DNA of 64,000 nt from Nesterenkonia sedimenti (GTDB lineage: Bacteria; Actinomycetota; Actinomycetes; Actinomycetales; Micrococcaceae). Location: the NCBI RefSeq assembly GCF_012641515.1, contig NZ_JABAHY010000008.1, positions 62,001 to 126,000 of the forward strand, read 5' to 3'. Below are positions 33-8,088 of the stretch, one piece after another. The translations under genes were made by a program, and so were the position numbers. A model generated the notes under the pieces. It made no database searches and was not told the DNA's origin. It saw only the letters and a list, made by a program, of their open reading frames with translations. The stretch's first letter is position 1. Each line of letters opens with the position of its first letter.

Positions 33-3000
33 GTGCAGTAGATCTGGACGCGGTCTTGGCCGGATTGCGTGACTTCCAAATCGACGCGGTGGAACACGTC
101 AGCGAACAGTTCTACGGTGAGGACGCCCAGCAGCGAAGCGGGCGATTCTTGATCGCGGATGAGACCGGCCTGGGTAAGAGCGTGATCGCCCGGGGTGTAG
201 TGGCCAAAGCCATCCGGGAGCTGGAAGCTGATCCCAACGTAGACCGCATCACTATCGTCTATATCTGCAGTAACCGTGATCTGGCGGGCCAGAACCTGGG
301 CCGCTTGAATGTGACTGGCCAGCGTGAGATTGCCATGGCTACTCGGCTCTCCTTATTAGCTAAGGAGACTGCGCGGCTGAAGGAAACCGCCCAGGAACAG
401 AACCATGCGCCGCAGGAATCGCCGGAAGATAGTGCGGTTGAAAGCCCCGCGCAGAAGCCCATCAACCTGGTGTCTTTCACCCCGGGGACCTCCTTCACCA
501 CAGCATCCTGGAGGCAGGGCAGCGCCGAGGAGCGGGCACTATTGGTATTGCTCCTAGACGAGTTGCTGGAACAGACTCCGCACCAGCAGCACCTGACCCG
601 TGTGATGTTTCGGGGCACGGTTTCCTCCGCCCAGCGGTTCAGTGACCTCTACGTAGGTGGGTTGGCTGAAAAATTCGACGACGACGGGATTGACCCGGCC
701 ATCAGAAACGAGTTCGATCGGCTAGCGCGCCCGGAAGCTGTCCCTGAATTCATCAGGGTGCGCGATTGGATGGCCGATGTTTACCCGGAAGGGCATGAGG
801 AACTAGATATGCCAGCACCGGATGTTCCGTGGGACATCTGGCACCCGTTGCAGAACGCTATATCCAAACTTCGAGCCCTGCTTGCCCGTGCGAGCGTGCA
901 GACCCTGCAACCGAACCTGGTGATCTTGGATGAGTTCCAGCGTTTCAAATCACTGTTGGACCCTGAGCGTGGGGGAGAGTCTGCGGAGTTAGCGGATGCG
1001 CTTTTTAGCTACCCGGATGCGAAGGTCCTGCTGCTCTCGGCTACCCCATATAAGCCGTTTACTCGGGCGGACGAGGATGAAGAGGACCACTACGAAGACT
1101 TCCTCGCCACCATCAGTTTTCTGTCTGGTCACAATCCGGAGAAAGTCGCTAACGTCCGTGCGGCGCTTAGTCATTACCGAGATGCGGTCGGCACCGGTCA
1201 CGGAGCCGAAGCTGCAGCTGAGGAGGTACGTGCCGAACTGTTGCCGGTGATGAGCCGTTCGGAACGTCCCAGTCTGATCGAAGAACGGGATCTCGTCTCC
1301 ATGCGGCATATTGATGTGCCTGTACCTAGCGCAGAGGATCTCTCCGAGTGGGTGGCACTGGCAGATCTTGGAAAGTCCCTCGGCTCGGCGGTGAGCCCGG
1401 AGTACTGGAAGTCGGTTCCGTATTTTGTGAACTTCATGAGTGGCTATCGGATTGGTCAACAGTTGACCGAGCTGCCACCAGGGCCACAGCGGCAAGCAAT
1501 CGCGAAGAACCTACGACAGATGCGTTCCTTAAAGAAAACTGCGGTAGAACGTAGTGCGGAGCTTGATCCAGGCAGCGGACCGCTGCGCGCGTTGATCGCC
1601 GAAACTCTGGACCAAGAGTGGTGGAAGTTATTGTGGATGCCACCCTCCATGCCTTACCTCACGCCTGGGCCGGTCTATTCCTCGGTGGAGCCGGGCAGCG
1701 TCACCAAACAGGTGCTCTTCTCGGCGTGGTCTGCAGCACCCACAGCTATAGCAACGCTCCTGAGCCACGAGGCCGAACGGCGCATGATGGGCTTAGGCAA
1801 GCGCGGGCGCAATGCCGATGCCCCGGAGAACGCCACCCAGCGGTTCACATACCGGCGCGATGAGGACGGACAGGGCACGAGTCTTTCGACCTTGGCTATT
1901 TTCTGGCCGCACCCGAGCCTGCTCTCCCGTACTGATCAGCTCCAAGCTGCACGAGAGAACCATGGACTACTAGACCCTAAGTTGCTGGTAGATACGCTGC
2001 AAACCAGAATGCCCACCGGAGAACCTGCACAGCGGGCCTGGGAAGCTTTCTTCGCGGTCCCGGGCGCCTTCGACCAAGAAGTCGCTGACCTCGCATTCAC
2101 GGTAGAAACTGAACGGCGCTCGGGCGGCTCACTTGGTTTGGAATCAAATATTGCGCAGGCACAGCAATTCACAACAAAGCACGACGGCGGGGAGTTGAGC
2201 CACCCAGACCTCGCACGAATCGCAGCGTTCTCACCAGGAAGTGTGGCCTACCGTGCGGTGTCGACTATTGCTGGTGAGAAGTGCACTCGTCAGGGTAAAT
2301 GGCGCGCTGCTTTCACCATTGCAGAAGGTCTACGTACGCTGTTTAACCGCCCGGAGGTTCAGGGTCTCCTGGATCAATTAGCGGAAGGTGAGAGTCCCTC
2401 GGCTCCCTATTGGCGGCGAGTGCTGGATTACTGCGCTGACGGTAACCTTCGGGCGGTATTGGATGAGTATCTCTTCCAGCTGTGGTGTGAGACCGGGCAG
2501 GCAGAGATGGACGATGAGAAGCTGATTGCCCTTGGCCAAGAAGTAGCTGCAGCGCTTGGCTTGCGCCCTGCGAGGTATGTGGCGCATGAGGCAGATCTTG
2601 AACGCACTCAACTACCTATGCAGGCGCGGTTTGCGGTGCGTTACGGCGGTGGGGAGCAGGCCCGGAGCGAGACGGATTCGGCCGTGGCGCGTCAGTCGGT
2701 GGTGCGTTCGGCGTTCAATAGCCCGTTCGCCCCATTTGTGTTGGCTTCTACCAGCGTGGGGCAGGAGGGTATCGATTTCCACTGGTGGAGTCACAGCGTG
2801 GTGCATTGGAATCTGCCTAGCAACCCGGTGGACTTCGAACAGCGCGAGGGCCGGGTGAATAGGTACGGCGGACACGCGGTGCGTAAGAACGTGGCCAGGG
2901 CACATTGGAATGACGTGCTGGACTCCACGGACGCTTGTGCTTGGCGGGCGGCTTTCTCTGCGGCCGAGAAAGTTGAGACTGAGGAGGGCGAGTTCTCTCC

Positions 3001-3250
3001 CTGGTGGGTGTACCGTGGCGAATCTCAAATCCAGCGTGTACTTGTTCAGTACCCCATGAGCCGGGATATCGAACGCTTCGAACAACTGCGTTCAGCCTTG
3101 ACCCGGTATCGCCTGACTCTCGGCCAACCCCGCCAAGAGGACATGGTGGAAATGCTCCTGCGCCAAAACATCGACGCCACCACCGTCCCCACCATCAACC
3201 TCAGGCCACCAAAAGCGCTCGGGACTGCTGCGCGAGTAGGTGACATCTGA
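29..3250 (+). CDS. Large SF2 helicase/ATPase, probable defence-island protein, 3' end replaced by IS3 sequence
   Basis: This is a superfamily 2 helicase of 1073 aa. The Walker A motif ADETGLGKS is at about residues 43-51, a DEFQ motif II at 301-304, SAT motif III at 337-339, and the C-terminal RecA-like lobe has motif VI QREGRVNR at 938-945. A long middle region (about 350-880) has no motif I recognise. A purine-rich Shine-Dalgarno lies inside the end of the preceding gene, and the ATG overlaps that gene's stop. The last nine residues (GTAARVGDI) and the stop are encoded by the left inverted repeat of the IS3 element starting at 3221, so the native C-terminus has been lost. It is probably only a short tail, because the helicase core is complete. 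Proteins of this general build are common in phage-defence operons, but I cannot assign a named system. Confidence 0.75.
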   Translation: MSAVDLDAVLAGLRDFQIDAVEHVSEQFYGEDAQQRSGRFLIADETGLGKSVIARGVVAKAIRELEADPNVDRITIVYICSNRDLAGQNLGRLNVTGQREIAMATRLSLLAKETARLKETAQEQNHAPQESPEDSAVESPAQKPINLVSFTPGTSFTTASWRQGSAEERALLVLLLDELLEQTPHQQHLTRVMFRGTVSSAQRFSDLYVGGLAEKFDDDGIDPAIRNEFDRLARPEAVPEFIRVRDWMADVYPEGHEELDMPAPDVPWDIWHPLQNAISKLRALLARASVQTLQPNLVILDEFQRFKSLLDPERGGESAELADALFSYPDAKVLLLSATPYKPFTRADEDEEDHYEDFLATISFLSGHNPEKVANVRAALSHYRDAVGTGHGAEAAAEEVRAELLPVMSRSERPSLIEERDLVSMRHIDVPVPSAEDLSEWVALADLGKSLGSAVSPEYWKSVPYFVNFMSGYRIGQQLTELPPGPQRQAIAKNLRQMRSLKKTAVERSAELDPGSGPLRALIAETLDQEWWKLLWMPPSMPYLTPGPVYSSVEPGSVTKQVLFSAWSAAPTAIATLLSHEAERRMMGLGKRGRNADAPENATQRFTYRRDEDGQGTSLSTLAIFWPHPSLLSRTDQLQAARENHGLLDPKLLVDTLQTRMPTGEPAQRAWEAFFAVPGAFDQEVADLAFTVETERRSGGSLGLESNIAQAQQFTTKHDGGELSHPDLARIAAFSPGSVAYRAVSTIAGEKCTRQGKWRAAFTIAEGLRTLFNRPEVQGLLDQLAEGESPSAPYWRRVLDYCADGNLRAVLDEYLFQLWCETGQAEMDDEKLIALGQEVAAALGLRPARYVAHEADLERTQLPMQARFAVRYGGGEQARSETDSAVARQSVVRSAFNSPFAPFVLASTSVGQEGIDFHWWSHSVVHWNLPSNPVDFEQREGRVNRYGGHAVRKNVARAHWNDVLDSTDACAWRAAFSAAEKVETEEGEFSPWWVYRGESQIQRVLVQYPMSRDIERFEQLRSALTRYRLTLGQPRQEDMVEMLLRQNIDATTVPTINLRPPKALGTAARVGDI
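3221..3245 (+). repeat. IS3 left terminal inverted repeat
   Basis: It begins GGGACTGCTGC and continues to GGTGACA. It matches the reverse complement of 5860-5884 at 22 of 25 positions. It lies inside the helicase reading frame and supplies that protein's last residues. Confidence 0.85.
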
Positions 3251-3290
3251 GCTGGCTTGCTCGGGAGGGCGAGCCTGGAAGGATGTTGCT

Positions 3291-3599
3291 GTGCCAAAGC
3301 CCTACCCGAGCGAGTTCCGTGACGACGTCGTGCGCGTCACCCGCAACCGTGAGCCTGGAGTGACGATCGAGCAGATCGCGAAAGACTTCGGTGTCCATCC
3401 GATGACGCTGCAGAAGTGGTTACGTCACGCTGACATCGACGAGGGCGCGAAGCCCGGCCAGTCCCAGTCCGAGTCGGCGGAGATCCGTGAACTGAAGAAA
3501 CGGAACCGGCTGCTGGAGCAGGAGAACGAGGTTCTCCGGCGGGCAGCGGCATATCTGTCGCAGGCGAACCTGCCGTCAAAAGGCTCTACCCGCTCGTGA
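3291..3599 (+). CDS. IS3-family transposase OrfA (HTH subunit)
   Basis: OrfA of an IS3-family element, 102 aa. An N-terminal helix-turn-helix of the transposase_8 type contains GVHPMTLQKWLR. It is followed by a short leucine-zipper-like segment (ELKKRNRLLEQENEVLRRA) typical of OrfA. I chose the GTG at 3291, which gives the family N-terminus PKPYPSEFRDD and has GGAAGGA just upstream, over a longer frame that would start in the helicase. Near the 3' end an AAAA run at 3578-3581 would let a -1 slip continue into the OrfB frame (LPSK-RLYPLV), as expected for IS3 programmed frameshifting. Confidence 0.85.
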   Translation: MPKPYPSEFRDDVVRVTRNREPGVTIEQIAKDFGVHPMTLQKWLRHADIDEGAKPGQSQSESAEIRELKKRNRLLEQENEVLRRAAAYLSQANLPSKGSTRS

Positions 3600-4277
3600 C
3601 AGAGCTCGCCGAATCGGGAATACCTGTGACGGTGACGTGTCGGGTTCTCAAGCTCTCCCGGCAGCCCTACTACCGGTGGCTGGCGAATCCTATTACTCCC
3701 AGCGAGATGGTGGAGGCCTATCGCGCGAACGCGCTCTTCGACGCCCACCAGGACGACCCCTGAGTTCGGGCATCGGTTGCTCGCCGACGAAGCCCGCGAC
3801 AACGGCGAGGCGATGTCAGATCGGACGGCGTGGTGGATCGCGTCTAGCAATGGGTGGTTCAGCACGTTCGGGAAACCCAAGCGCGGCAAGGCCCGCAAGC
3901 CCGGTCCACCCGTCCACGACGACCTCTGCGCGGTCGTTGACGAGCACGGCCGGGTGCGGCATGTGTTCGCCGCCAATGCGCCGAACGAACTCTGGCTGGT
4001 GGACATCACCGAGCACAAGACCGCCGAAGGCAAGCTCTACCTATGCGCCATCAAGGACGCGTTCTCTGGCCGGATCGTGGGCTACTCGATCGACTCGAGA
4101 ATGAAGTCCCGGCTAGCCGTTCAGGCACTGGAGAACGCCGCCGCGATGCGCGGTGATGTCGCCGGCTGCGTGGTTCACAGCGACAGAGGATCTCAGTTTC
4201 GAAGCAGGATATTCCTGCGCGCGCTGAGCCGTCACCGCATGGTCGGCTCAATGGGCAGGGTCGGTGCTGCCGGGGAT

Positions 4278-4547
4278 TGTCAGTCTCTTTTCACCGGGTC
4301 TTGCGAAGATCAGGTAGTCCTGGCCGGAGTGTTCTGACCCTTGCTGGCGATTGGCCCTTGATGGTGCCTTGGCGTTGTACTGTCGAGCCTGCGGTCGGGC
4401 GCGCAGTAACACGCTGCCGCCGACCAGTAGTGACCTAATAGGAGCCTGGAGCAAGCAAGTCAACGAAGCCTCCTCGTGACAGTCCTGTCCTGCTGGCCGA
4501 CGACAGTGTGCCATGTTCACACTACTTCGCCCAGCAGCGCAGGGACT
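4278..4547 (+). ncRNA. Candidate IS110 bridge RNA (target- and donor-guide loops)
   Basis: IS110-group elements are known to make a bridge (seek) RNA from the non-coding end upstream of the recombinase. Four segments fit its guides in the known order. 4341-4351 (TTGCTGGCGAT) resembles the left target 4267-4277: 8 of 11 identical, two more positions G-U compatible. 4371-4377 (GGCGTTG) is the exact complement of the right target 5643-5649. 4438-4445 (ATAGGAGC) is identical to the right end of the element at 5633-5640. 4477-4483 (TGACAGT) complements the left end 4276-4282 with one wobble. GGAG/CTCC and GGC/GCC pairings could form the stems between guides. RNA ends are unknown and the structure is inferred by eye. 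Confidence 0.6.
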
Positions 4548-5627
4548 ATGACCACAGAACCAGAGATCAGGTCGGGATACCTCGTCATTGGCGTCGATAC
4601 CCACAAACACATCCACGTCGCGGCCGTCATGGACTCCGTGGCCGGCATGCTGGCAACCCTCACGATCGCCACCGACACTGGTGGATTCAAACAGCTGCTG
4701 AATTGGGCAGAGTCCTTCGGGAAGGTTCTGGTCTTCGGCATCGAAGGCACCGGCTCTTACGGGGCCACCCTGACCACGTACCTGCCTCGGAAAGGGCACA
4801 AGGTCCTAGAGGCTGGCAGGCCAGATCGGCGAATGCGCCGGATGAATGGTAAGTCCGACACTCTCGATGCCGACAACGCTGCACCAGCGGCACTATCCGG
4901 ATTAGCGACCGCGACTGCGAAGACCGCCGACGGGGCAGTGGAGATGATCCGACAGCTAAAGATCGTCCACGACACCGCGGTCAGGGACCGCACAGGTGCC
5001 ATGGTGAGGCTGAAAGCGATGTTGGTCCACGGTGATGATCAGCTGCGGGCCTCCACCAACCGCATGACTCAGATCAAGCTCGCCCGCCACCTTGCTGGAC
5101 TGCGGCCGCGGAAGCTGACGATCCCCGAAGATGCGCTACGACATAGCCTGCCGACTGTGGCAAGGCGTTGGCTGGCACTCGATGCTGAGGTCAAGGACAT
5201 CGCGGCGATGGTGGAGAACCTGGTCGTGACGACCTGCCCTGAGATATTGGAACGTTTCGGGGTGGGGGTGGACACGGCAGCGGAGATCCTCATCGTTGCT
5301 GGAGACAATCCAGAACGTATCCGCTCTGAAGCTGCGTTCGCGAAGCTCGCCGGGATCAGCCCGGTGCCGACTGGCTCCGGAATGACCAGCGGGAAACATC
5401 GGATCAACCACCGCGGGCACCGGCAGCTCAACGCGGCGATCTACAGGACCGTGATCGTGAGGATGCAGTTCCACGAACCCACCATCGCCTATGTCGCTCG
5501 ACGCACAGCTGAAGGCAAGTCCACACGCGACATCATCCGGTGTCTCAAACGCTATGTCATCCGCGAGGTCTATCACCTGATCAAGGCACGACCTCCTGCC
5601 GCGGAGCCGGCCTCAGCGACTACTTGA
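4548..5627 (+). CDS. IS110-family transposase/recombinase (DEDD + Ser)
   Basis: A 359-aa recombinase. The N-terminal DEDD (RuvC-like) domain shows D17 in GVDTHK, E66 in GIEGTGSYG, and D104/D107 in KSDTLDAD. The C-terminal Tnp_20 domain has GDNPERIRSEAAFAKLAGISP and the conserved TSGKHR around S281, the position of the nucleophilic serine in this family. I chose the ATG at 4548, which gives the usual short lead-in to GYLVIGVDTHK. A longer frame from 4476 would run into the candidate guide RNA. The gene looks intact, so this copy may still be able to move, guided by the RNA encoded just upstream. Confidence 0.9.
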   Translation: MTTEPEIRSGYLVIGVDTHKHIHVAAVMDSVAGMLATLTIATDTGGFKQLLNWAESFGKVLVFGIEGTGSYGATLTTYLPRKGHKVLEAGRPDRRMRRMNGKSDTLDADNAAPAALSGLATATAKTADGAVEMIRQLKIVHDTAVRDRTGAMVRLKAMLVHGDDQLRASTNRMTQIKLARHLAGLRPRKLTIPEDALRHSLPTVARRWLALDAEVKDIAAMVENLVVTTCPEILERFGVGVDTAAEILIVAGDNPERIRSEAAFAKLAGISPVPTGSGMTSGKHRINHRGHRQLNAAIYRTVIVRMQFHEPTIAYVARRTAEGKSTRDIIRCLKRYVIREVYHLIKARPPAAEPASATT

Positions 5628-5859
5628 CAACTATAGGAGCATCAACGCCGCCATGGAGTCCTTCTACTCGCTGCTGCAGAACAACGTCCTCGACGCCCAG
5701 CCCTGGCGCACGCGGGAAGGAGCTGACCACCGCGATCATCTACTGGATTGAGAGGACCTATCACCGACGCCGCAGGCAGCGGCGCCTGGATAAACTGACC
5801 CCGGTCGAATACGAGACCGTTTACACAGAAGCCGTCGCATTGGCGGCGTGACTAGGAAC

Positions 5860-5884
5860 TGTCACCTATCCGTGCAGCAGTCCC
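5860..5884 (-). repeat. IS3 right terminal inverted repeat
   Basis: The reverse complement begins GGGACTGCTGC and reaches GGTGACA, pairing with 3221-3245. It marks the outer right edge of the IS3 element, just after the OrfB stop. Confidence 0.85.
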
Positions 5885-6667
5885 ACCCATCACGTACTGA
5901 ATATGCGGGACGGCCCAACCGGCTTGGAGCCAGCTTCTTTCGACCTGGTCATGGCTTTGGGCCGCTCTCTTCGCTCCAGCGGTCGGGTGGAGATGCTGCC
6001 GACCTTGGTCCGGAGCCTTCAGCAGGATCCGACCATGCAGGGGCCGGCTGGGCTGCTCATGGTTTCGTATATGGAGGGGCTGGAGTACTGGGCTGGACGC
6101 CGACCTCAGGAGGCCATGCGCGCTTTCCATAGCTCTTTGGAACGGCTGAATGCACTGCCATCTATTCGTCCCACGCAGCCGACCGGTGAGGGCGGGGGGC
6201 TACGCCTGGCACGGGCAATGTTTGCGGTGGAGTTCGCTGCTTTGGTTCTATCCTTCCCCGAGGAGCTAGAAGCTTATAGGGCGCAGGCCCTTGAACTGGT
6301 GGGCTGGGGCGCCACTGTTTACCAGGCTTGCGGTGTAGAGAGTCAAGTTGAATATGCGAATTCGTTGACCATGCGACTGCGTGAACAACAGGGAACCCCT
6401 GTCGCAGTACCTTCACCACCGGCGATGGTGCAGGAGTCTGAGCCTGCGCCCTCAGCCACGGATGGCGCCCTGTTGGAGAAGCTGGAGCTTCTCTCCCGGC
6501 GAGAGCAGGAGGTTGCACTGTTGGTCCGAAAGCAGCTGACGAATAAGGAGATCGCGCAGGAGCTGGTACTTTAAGTGCGCACTGTGGAGTATCACGCGGC
6601 CAATATCTTGACCAAGCTTGAGCTGAAATCCCGGCGGCAACTGCGCCAAGCCCTCACCACCACCTGA
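5885..6667 (+). pseudogene. LuxR-family regulator, 5'-truncated by IS3 and with a stop in the HTH
   Basis: The frame is open across the IS3 right edge, so the 5' part of the gene is missing. The remaining 220 or so residues have helical character (SLQQDPTMQGPAGLLMVSYMEGLEYWAGRRPQ and similar), followed by the start of a LuxR/GerE HTH (LLEKLELLSRREQEVALLVRKQLTNKEIAQEL). At 6572-6574 a TAA interrupts the HTH. The same frame then continues with the rest of the domain (VRTVEYHAANILTKLELKSRRQ) to a TGA at 6665-6667. Family members usually have a Ser codon where the TAA lies, so one base change (TCA to TAA) explains the stop. The protein cannot bind DNA as encoded. Confidence 0.75.
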
Positions 6668-6714
6668 TCGCAGTAAGCGTAGGCTACTCACGCACACGGT
6701 CGAACCGGCATAAC

Positions 6715-8088
6715 CTAGGCGGCTTTACGGTGAGTTTCTTTCCCAGTGTCAGACTTGGGTGGGTCTCCGTTGGGTGGGGGTAGGTAGCCGTGGGATTTGA
6801 GCCGGTGATGTCTGCGGCACAGTGCCCAGAGGTTGGTGCCTGTGGTGGGTCCGGCTCTTTCGTAGGGGATCTGATGGTCTAGATCGCTGCGTTCGGCAGG
6901 GATGGTGCATCCGGTGGCCTGGCAGACCCCGTCCCGGAAGATCACAGCGTCCCGTAGCCGTTCGGGGGCGAACCGTCCGTTGTAGATCACCGTGAGGATG
7001 TCCCGGTCAGCCCGTTTCTTGTCCTTCTGCGTGCCTGCGGTGTACCACTCGTGATCCGCCTCGGGATCAGCTGCCATCTTCCTGATGTCTGCCGCTGGGA
7101 TGACGCTGGCCCGATCAGCACTGACCGCGGGTTCCTCAGATTCCCCGGTGAGTGATTCTTCGGGGACCATCACGCAGATCTTTGCGGAGATGGGTGTGCT
7201 GTAGCAGTGGCCATCTCGCAGCCAGGCGCTGAGGAGGTCGGCCTCCCGCTGACGGATGGTCCGGTCATCGACCCCGCCAGTGGTGATTTCGGGGTCGTGG
7301 TACGGGGCGTCGTGATCCACTGGCGTGGTATCGCCCACCCCCACCGCGGCGGGATGGGGTCCCCCGATGGGTGGCTGGTCAGTGTCCCTCGGCTGTGCCC
7401 GGTTCATGCCTCGCGCTGCGGCGTTGACCTTCTTCTCGATGGTCTTGGCCTCAATAGTGGGGATGAAGAGTTCAACCAGGCTCATGCCTTCTCCGAAGTG
7501 GGTAAAGGTCACAGACCGGCGTTCTTTAGCGTCCTCGGCTGCCTCGTTGAAGAGCTCCATATCCAGTTCGGGGATACGCCGGATGATCCAGGAGCGAAGC
7601 TCGGTGGGTGTCTTTCCCGGGGCGATGTCGACCAGTTCCTCGTCAATGATCTCTAAGAGGCCGTCTCGGTGAATGAGTGGGAGGGTCTCCACTGCGGCCT
7701 TGCGCAGATTGGTCAGGGCAATGGCACCACAGCGGAAGGCTTTCCAGAACTTCGGCAGATGTTCACGGACGTATTCGGCGGCATTGAGTACTGCGGTGGC
7801 CTGCTGGTCACTCATCCCCAGCAGGAGTCCGGCATGCCGGTTGGCCTGGCGATTATTTGCAGCTCGTACATGGGGGTTCTCGCCCATGGTTTCTTTCCAC
7901 CGGGTCTCACGGTGGGTGAGGAAGTGTTCGATAGAGGCAGCGGTTTCACGGTTGGCGTCGACGATGGATTCCCAGGCAGCTTCCAGTTCCTCATCACCGA
8001 TGAGGTGAGAGGCACGCTCCGGTATCTCCGGGCGGGGAAACTGCTGTTCATCCTTCATAAAACCCACGCTACCCCTGGGGGTGGACAT
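6715..8088 (-). CDS. DUF222 / HNH endonuclease domain protein (13E12-repeat type)
   Basis: A 457-aa protein of the actinobacterial 13E12-repeat family. The DUF222 region covers roughly residues 30-330, including HRETRWKETMGENPHVRAANNRQANRHAG. A C-terminal HNH nuclease domain is recognisable by RDGVCQATGCTIPAERSDLDHQIPYERAGPT and LCRRHHRLKSHGY, giving the zinc and catalytic Cys/His set. These genes occur in many copies in actinobacterial genomes and some sit inside mobile introns or inteins. Their cellular role is unsettled. The start is uncertain: an ATG 10 codons downstream (8058) is equally plausible. The gene stands alone between the LuxR remnant and a gene-poor stretch. Confidence 0.85.
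   Translation of the reverse strand: MSTPRGSVGFMKDEQQFPRPEIPERASHLIGDEELEAAWESIVDANRETAASIEHFLTHRETRWKETMGENPHVRAANNRQANRHAGLLLGMSDQQATAVLNAAEYVREHLPKFWKAFRCGAIALTNLRKAAVETLPLIHRDGLLEIIDEELVDIAPGKTPTELRSWIIRRIPELDMELFNEAAEDAKERRSVTFTHFGEGMSLVELFIPTIEAKTIEKKVNAAARGMNRAQPRDTDQPPIGGPHPAAVGVGDTTPVDHDAPYHDPEITTGGVDDRTIRQREADLLSAWLRDGHCYSTPISAKICVMVPEESLTGESEEPAVSADRASVIPAADIRKMAADPEADHEWYTAGTQKDKKRADRDILTVIYNGRFAPERLRDAVIFRDGVCQATGCTIPAERSDLDHQIPYERAGPTTGTNLWALCRRHHRLKSHGYLPPPNGDPPKSDTGKETHRKAA

Follow-up and report, generated by a model that had tools for sequence, protein, structure and literature searches.

The window, a 64,000-nt stretch of the Nesterenkonia sedimenti genome, contains an IS110-group element that splits an IS3-family transposase gene and that carries, in the noncoding DNA of its left end, four short segments matching its own flanks and its own ends. 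The features of the locus are:

3258..3596, + strand: orfA of the struck IS3-family element, a helix-turn-helix protein (Pfam HTH_Tnp_1, 4.9e-10)
3777..4277, + strand: 5′ part of the split IS3 orfB transposase (Pfam rve, 2.5e-22), ending ..GSMGRVGAAGD
4278..5643, + strand: IS110-group element, 1366 bp, sitting between target GAT and AAC
4294..4314, + strand: 5′ stem-loop of the predicted bridge RNA (helix 1; two-sided change in 4/7 pairs)
4319..4399, + strand: predicted target-binding stem carrying an internal loop (consensus-fold helices 2-4)
4341..4351, + strand: left target guide (LTG), TTGCTGGCGAT, identified by the match to its own flank and the permutation test, and unpaired in the evaluated structure
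4371..4377, + strand: right target guide (RTG), GGCGTT plus a core-pairing G; pairs with top strand AACGCC at 5644-5649
4412..4508, + strand: predicted donor-binding stem carrying an internal loop (consensus-fold helices 5-7)
4438..4445, + strand: left donor guide (LDG), ATAGGAGC, equal to the right end at 5633-5640
4477..4484, + strand: right donor guide (RDG), TGACA, then GTC; TGACA pairs with left end TGTCA at 4278-4282
4548..5627, + strand: IS110 DEDD recombinase, 359 aa (PF01548, DEDD_Tnp_IS110, 2e-18; PF02371, Transposase_20, 1.1e-15)
5624..5643, + strand: right end, TTGACAACTATAGGAGCATC, with TTGACA and the left donor
5644..5848, + strand: 3′ part of the split IS3 transposase, starting NAAMESF, with the right target as its opening 6 bases

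The boundaries of the element were set by homology to other left and right ends and by analogy with the empty sites of a relative, L009. The 270-nt noncoding left end (4278-4547) lies upstream of the gene and the right end comprises only 16 nt, which fits the IS110-group arrangement of a long noncoding end 5′ of the gene and a short right end. Both Pfam domains of the recombinase score over their gathering thresholds, indicating that the IS110 family domains are present. In comparisons with PDB entries, the recombinase matches IS621 (8wt6, 2.3e-8) and ISCro4 (9t56, 9.7e-7), and the catalytic residues D, E, D, D and Ser align with those of 8wt6, the N-terminal stretch of the alignment being weak taken alone (3.6 bits). 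The TGACA of the right end and the TGTCA of the left end form a 5-bp inverted repeat, and the TTGACA of the right end is a possible −35 element of a putative circle-junction promoter. A search of window positions 3000-7000 with 4,227 Rfam families gave four matches, every one under its gathering score.

Elsewhere in the genome, the element is matched by a partial copy that has diverged (L002, 78%) and by a pair of right-end fragments; no second full-length copy was found. The fragments (L003, 1501-1681, and L004, 1501-1649; 99% and 98% identical) lack the rest of the element; L004 continues into NAAMESF, like a YDNA-type site, and L003 adjoins unrelated DNA starting TGTCACC. The initial annotation had asked whether identical copies lie at unrelated sites: no full copy does so, the L003 fragment being what adjoins unrelated DNA.

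The interrupted orfB extends from approximately 3625 to 5848 (read by eye), and the final 11 bases of its 5′ part constitute the left target. A match to rve_2 at 5720-5848 is weak (E 0.0064) and under the Pfam gathering score. The reading frame of the IS3 transposase also breaks beyond the insertion, at about 3760 and about 5715 (by eye), and the transposase thus was or became broken independently of it. Downstream, window positions 5903-6600 resemble the C-terminus of a LuxR-type regulator, with a stop near 6574 (by eye).

All four guide matches that had been proposed for the left end are present in the sequence at the positions given for them. Specifically, the LTG matches the flank CTGCCGGGGAT (4267-4277) at 8 positions, with wobbles at 2 more and a mismatch at 1; GGCGTTG at 4371-4377 is the exact reverse complement of CAACGCC at 5643-5649; and TGACAGT at 4477-4483 complements ATTGTCA at 4276-4282 with one wobble, the match reaching one base further, to 4484. 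Once strands have been exchanged, the GTC that trails the RDG (core plus handshake) is able to pair with target GAT (4275-4277). When the 270-nt sequence was shuffled 20,000 times with its dinucleotides preserved, and with the right target set to the 6 true target bases and the right donor to the first 5 element bases, equally good matches arose in 5.0% of cases for the LTG, 6.7% for the RTG, 0.13% for the LDG, and 29% for the RDG; all four jointly, in any order, arose in 0/20,000 (the four frequencies multiply to 1.3e-6). The 7-nt RTG stands as an exact complement, but its first base, the G at 4371, does not covary with the flanks of relatives: covariation at this base was sought in the relatives' guide/flank listing and not found, and a T there opposes C in several copies. 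The evidence for the RTG therefore rests on GCGTTG, and, since GCGTTG is invariant in close copies, covariation says nothing on the RTG.

Relatives were collected by one scan of genome contigs (78 loci), by a same-genus search (9/30 genomes, the window's included), and by a plasmid search (matches in 57 records, 8 of which were fetched). Left ends could be located for 40 copies, one of which is the window's, and right ends for 61. The Asp codon GAY ends the left flank in 38/38 distinct left flanks, with terminal residues Y-D in 25, F-D in 7, W-D in 3, G-D in 2, and H-D in 1. TGTCA follows GAY in all 40 copies, a count that reflects the use of that motif to find them; TGTGA takes its place in more distant relatives. 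Right flanks were counted over 85 loci, of which 7 have no right end found, 5 reach a contig end, and the rest give 69 distinct flanks; outside this count are L001 (the window copy), L002, L069, L075, L076, L079-L082, L085, L088-L091, L099, and L100-L111. N-A-x-x-E is present in frame in 58 of the 69 (including L074, NAYAE), near variants of it are present in four (L027, L035, L037, L051), and the other seven are L003 (a right-end fragment), L025, L033, L068, L057, L058, and L060. L025 and L033 deviate in their right flanks and have left flanks within the motif. At the right junction of L025, TGTCAACGCC replaces AACGCC and an additional TGTC is present, as if a piece of a left end had remained.

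We take the target to be the conserved G-D-x-Y-D-N-A-x-x-E region of IS3-family transposases (the YDNA..E motif). Pfam evidence for IS3 membership of the target pertains to the window. Among the eight fetched plasmid records, the gene on the left is annotated "IS3 family transposase" in four; a fifth has IS3 pieces farther up- and downstream; and three name none, one of these being unannotated. Judged from the flanks, the target is a protein motif of IS3-family transposases.

The insertion point is defined by Brevibacterium sp. CS2, which contains copy L009 together with three empty copies of its target (L105, L107, L108). Relative to the empty sites, the 300-bp left flank of L009 (99.3-99.7% identical) and its right flank of 255-261 bp (99.2-100% identical) abut exactly at GAT|AAC. 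Target bases were neither lost nor duplicated, the left flank ending in GAT and the right flank starting with AAC; consequently, the last base ahead of the left end is target sequence and the C ahead of AAC is element sequence. The AT shared by both junctions, which the initial annotation had put forward as the core, is ruled out by these sites, where insertion occurred between GAY and AAY without duplication. By the L009 rule, C5643 of the window would belong to the element, AT at 4276-4277 to the target, and AT at 5641-5642 to the element. A one-base ambiguity stays at the window junction, because its uninterrupted, more distant counterpart in the same genome (L091, GCC GGA GAC AAT GCC), both sides of which align to the window flanks and join at one point, shares just 72-73% identity with them and has GAC AAT at the site. 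Directly upstream of this uninterrupted target, L091 6-1130 carries a reading frame of the group II intron reverse transcriptase type (by eye).

A consensus fold was computed with RNAalifold from an alignment of 23 sequences chosen from the 40 copies. It comprises a 5′ stem-loop followed by a pair of stems, each with an internal loop, and the four guides are distributed over these two loops. Three RNAalifold pairs between the LTG end and the RTG were omitted when loops and pair changes were evaluated. Consensus pairing holds in 97.1% of 1,104 cells, and two-sided changes are present in 14/48 pairs, as compared to 7.0 in shuffles and 0 to 4 in slid controls, over which the structure is favoured because it comes from this very alignment. 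Folded by itself, the window sequence lacks the two loops (z −0.71); the consensus shape on 216 nt has −61.5 versus −80.6 for the minimum free energy fold, a cost of ~19 kcal/mol, and folding the window as two separate parts yields the outer stems. The two-loop fold that had been predicted is thus recovered in the 23-sequence comparative fold but not in the single-sequence fold.

On the left side, guides and targets vary together. The 40 copies provide 36 distinct guide/flank pairs, and in these the LTGs fit their own flanks better than shuffled ones. Over 11 positions, the summed pairing is 260.5, versus a shuffled mean of 237.0 (sd 5.3; 0/20,000 as high), and for the codon at −6 to −4 alone it is 88.0 versus 74.1 (0/20,000); because the copies are related, the permutation test overstates independence, and the figure is not a true probability. 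Sorting the 40 copies by guide class and site class gives 34 Y-type guides on Y, F, or H sites; 3 W-type guides on W sites, two of them (L031 and L032) sharing one site; 2 G-type guides on G sites; and 1 misfit, L030, with a Y-type guide on a W-type site. A FastTree tree, in which support values were not considered and the position of L031 was ignored (long branch; translation crosses a frame break), places the window beside L028 and L083, and L033, the second copy with a G guide, beside L005 and L007; all four of these neighbours carry Y guides. An identical three-base guide difference with a matching site is therefore found on two branches, and may reflect two changes or transfer. The window guide fits the L033 site, GCTGCCGGCGAT, better than its own, GCTGCCGGGGAT. 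If the guide reading is true, the window guide would favour GCTGCCGG-GAT|AAC over GGCGACAGCTACGAC|AAC, and the L083 guide would do the opposite.

On the donor side, the guides change in step with the element ends. Left end TGTCA occurs with RDG TGACA in 23/23 loci having both read, and left end TGTGA with RDG TCACA in 12/12; right end ATAGGGGC occurs with LDG ATAGGGGC in 6/6, and right end AGAGGAGC with LDG AGAGGAGC in 2/2. In L026 and L063 the LDG departs from the right end at one position, and the LDG of L030 is off by one base. A Geodermatophilaceae subclade (L056-L061) keeps the RNA layout and has different guides: right end and LDG are AGAGGAGC, the RDG is CTCAGTG against left end CACTGA, and the readable right flanks (L057, L058, L060) are non-IS3. 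By its guides and flanks, this subclade looks like a retargeted branch.

Core and handshake bases were compared in the 36/40 copies having all parts, which are related and not independent, with numbering per IS621 and the cut after position 9. Target positions 7-9 read GAY in 36/36, and donor positions 7-9 read RTC in 34/36 (CTC in L025, TTC in L096), such that position 8, the first core base, is A in the target versus T in the donor in 36/36. Before exchange, position 8 pairs in 3/36 copies between RTG and target and in 0/36 between RDG and donor; after exchange, it pairs in 33/36 between RTG and donor and in 36/36 between RDG and target. The three post-exchange RTG exceptions are the window, L028, and L083, in which the RTG reads GTA, not GAT. 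GTA, at 4377-4379 in the window, marks a lineage of L001, L002, L028, L054, and L083, and GAT is present in the other 35/40 copies. IS621, as described in PMC11208158, has handshake pairing beside its core, and RTG pairing to the target in place of the donor is of the kind that blocked exchange there. The position-8 pairing in our alignment resembles, by analogy, the IS621 handshake, here apparently extending into the core itself; by the same rule, the GTA form should hinder exchange.

Bridge RNAs of IS110 elements (PMC11208160 and PMC11208158) and seekRNAs (PMC11187229) are established. According to PMC11208160 and PMC11208158, IS621 shares with the window element a DEDD RuvC domain plus a serine Tnp domain and an RNA in the left end, with a 5′ stem-loop, a target loop, and a donor loop in turn, handshake bases beside the core, and LTG and LDG reading the bottom strand while RTG and RDG read the top. 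By those accounts, IS621 has CT at both junctions and targets REP elements, whereas the window clade has a first core base of A versus T and a second of C or T versus C, and targets IS3 transposase codons. Besides IS621, the recombinase has another relative with a solved structure, ISCro4 (PDB 9t56; E 9.7e-7), compared at the level of protein sequence. The IS1111 group has its guide RNA downstream and sub-terminal inverted repeats of 7-17 bp; in contrast, the window element has its RNA upstream and a repeat of 5 bp.

A close parallel is ISEc21, an IS110 element that has IS3 transposase codons as its target and a relative of which was redirected by three guide bases, as reported in PMC11187229. 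As described there, the ISEc21/ISMch6 seekRNA system and the window clade both have an upstream RNA, a target in a conserved stretch of IS3-family transposases, and no target duplication. The ISEc21 target consists of codons around the second D of DDE, as compared, by description, to D-N-A-x-x-E in the window clade, and covariation in the window clade spans 36 distinct pairs with one switch on two branches. Within open-licence text, ISEc21 is the sole parallel to this clade and motif among the matches listed; members of the clade may be present in the Supplementary Data of PMC11208160. Because ISEc21 is already published, targeting of IS3 transposase codons by IS110 elements is not new; added here are another target motif, covariation over a broad set of copies, a guide switch seen on two branches, and a split core.

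We consider it very probable that the IS110-group element was inserted by bridge-RNA-guided recombination into the IS3-family transposase gene. A bridge RNA with guides in the order LTG, RTG, LDG, RDG, as first annotated, is borne out by the permutation test, the donor covariation, the two-loop structure, and the homology of the recombinase to IS621 and ISCro4. In the proposed mechanism, the element would be excised as a circle; the left-end RNA, if expressed, would fold as covariation indicates into a 5′ stem-loop and two loops, the second of which would pair with the joined ends GGAGCATC/TGTCAG; and the DEDD/serine recombinase, presumably active given its homology, would swap top strands right after the GAY codon. 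The circle would enter between D and N of [Y/F/W/G]-D-N-A-x-x-E, and the rival transposase would thereby be severed ahead of its catalytic Glu. The catalytic role of the Glu in this motif is known for IS3-family transposases.

That the four matches arose by chance, the noncoding end being something else, is scarcely credible: single matches, the 8-mer aside, are not rare (5%, 6.7%, 29%) and the single-sequence fold is unremarkable, but no shuffle contained the four together, the layout is the same in relatives, and the guide/flank permutation, the donor covariation, and the two-sided pair changes contradict it. Selection of the target by protein-DNA contacts, with guide matches as relics of conserved sequence, is very unlikely. 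Within the clade, the motif target and the guides alike show high conservation, so that shared ancestry could account for much of each match; against this, LTG and flank differ jointly on two branches (window versus L083/L028; L033 versus L005/L007) and at W-type sites too, and in other subfamilies a change of ends is accompanied by a change of donor guides.

A more substantial alternative, somewhat unlikely in our judgment, is that the architecture is right and the window copy is degenerate and immobile, inactive in an already broken IS3 element. The frame breaks of the host IS3 element outside the insertion point in this direction, as do a Pro in the recombinase, near the last acidic residue, where L083 has Arg; the absence of a second full-length copy from its own genome; and an RTG that pairs with the target, not the donor, at core position 8, a type of pairing that, in the IS621 experiments described in PMC11208158, blocked exchange. 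However, the 359-aa frame is open with its catalytic residues in place, and the same RTG bases are present in L002, L028, L054, and L083, making them a lineage trait.

Guided insertion into the transposase gene remains the preferred reading, and we give about even chances to a further generalization, in which a widespread IS110 clade writes its guides to DNAxxE codons, swaps the left guide as the codons differ, has a core of effectively one base, and has loops that pair with recombined strands there. If this is true, pairing with recombined strands rather than substrates would favour insertion over reversal, and the split core, a departure from the IS621 CT rule, could help in making one-way bridge recombinases. 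The clade would represent a naturally repeated retargeting experiment, in which guides and sites vary together around one recombinase family. With catalytic-motif codons as its target, one guide RNA would have numerous sites across many genomes, and every insertion would sever a rival transposase ahead of its last catalytic residue.
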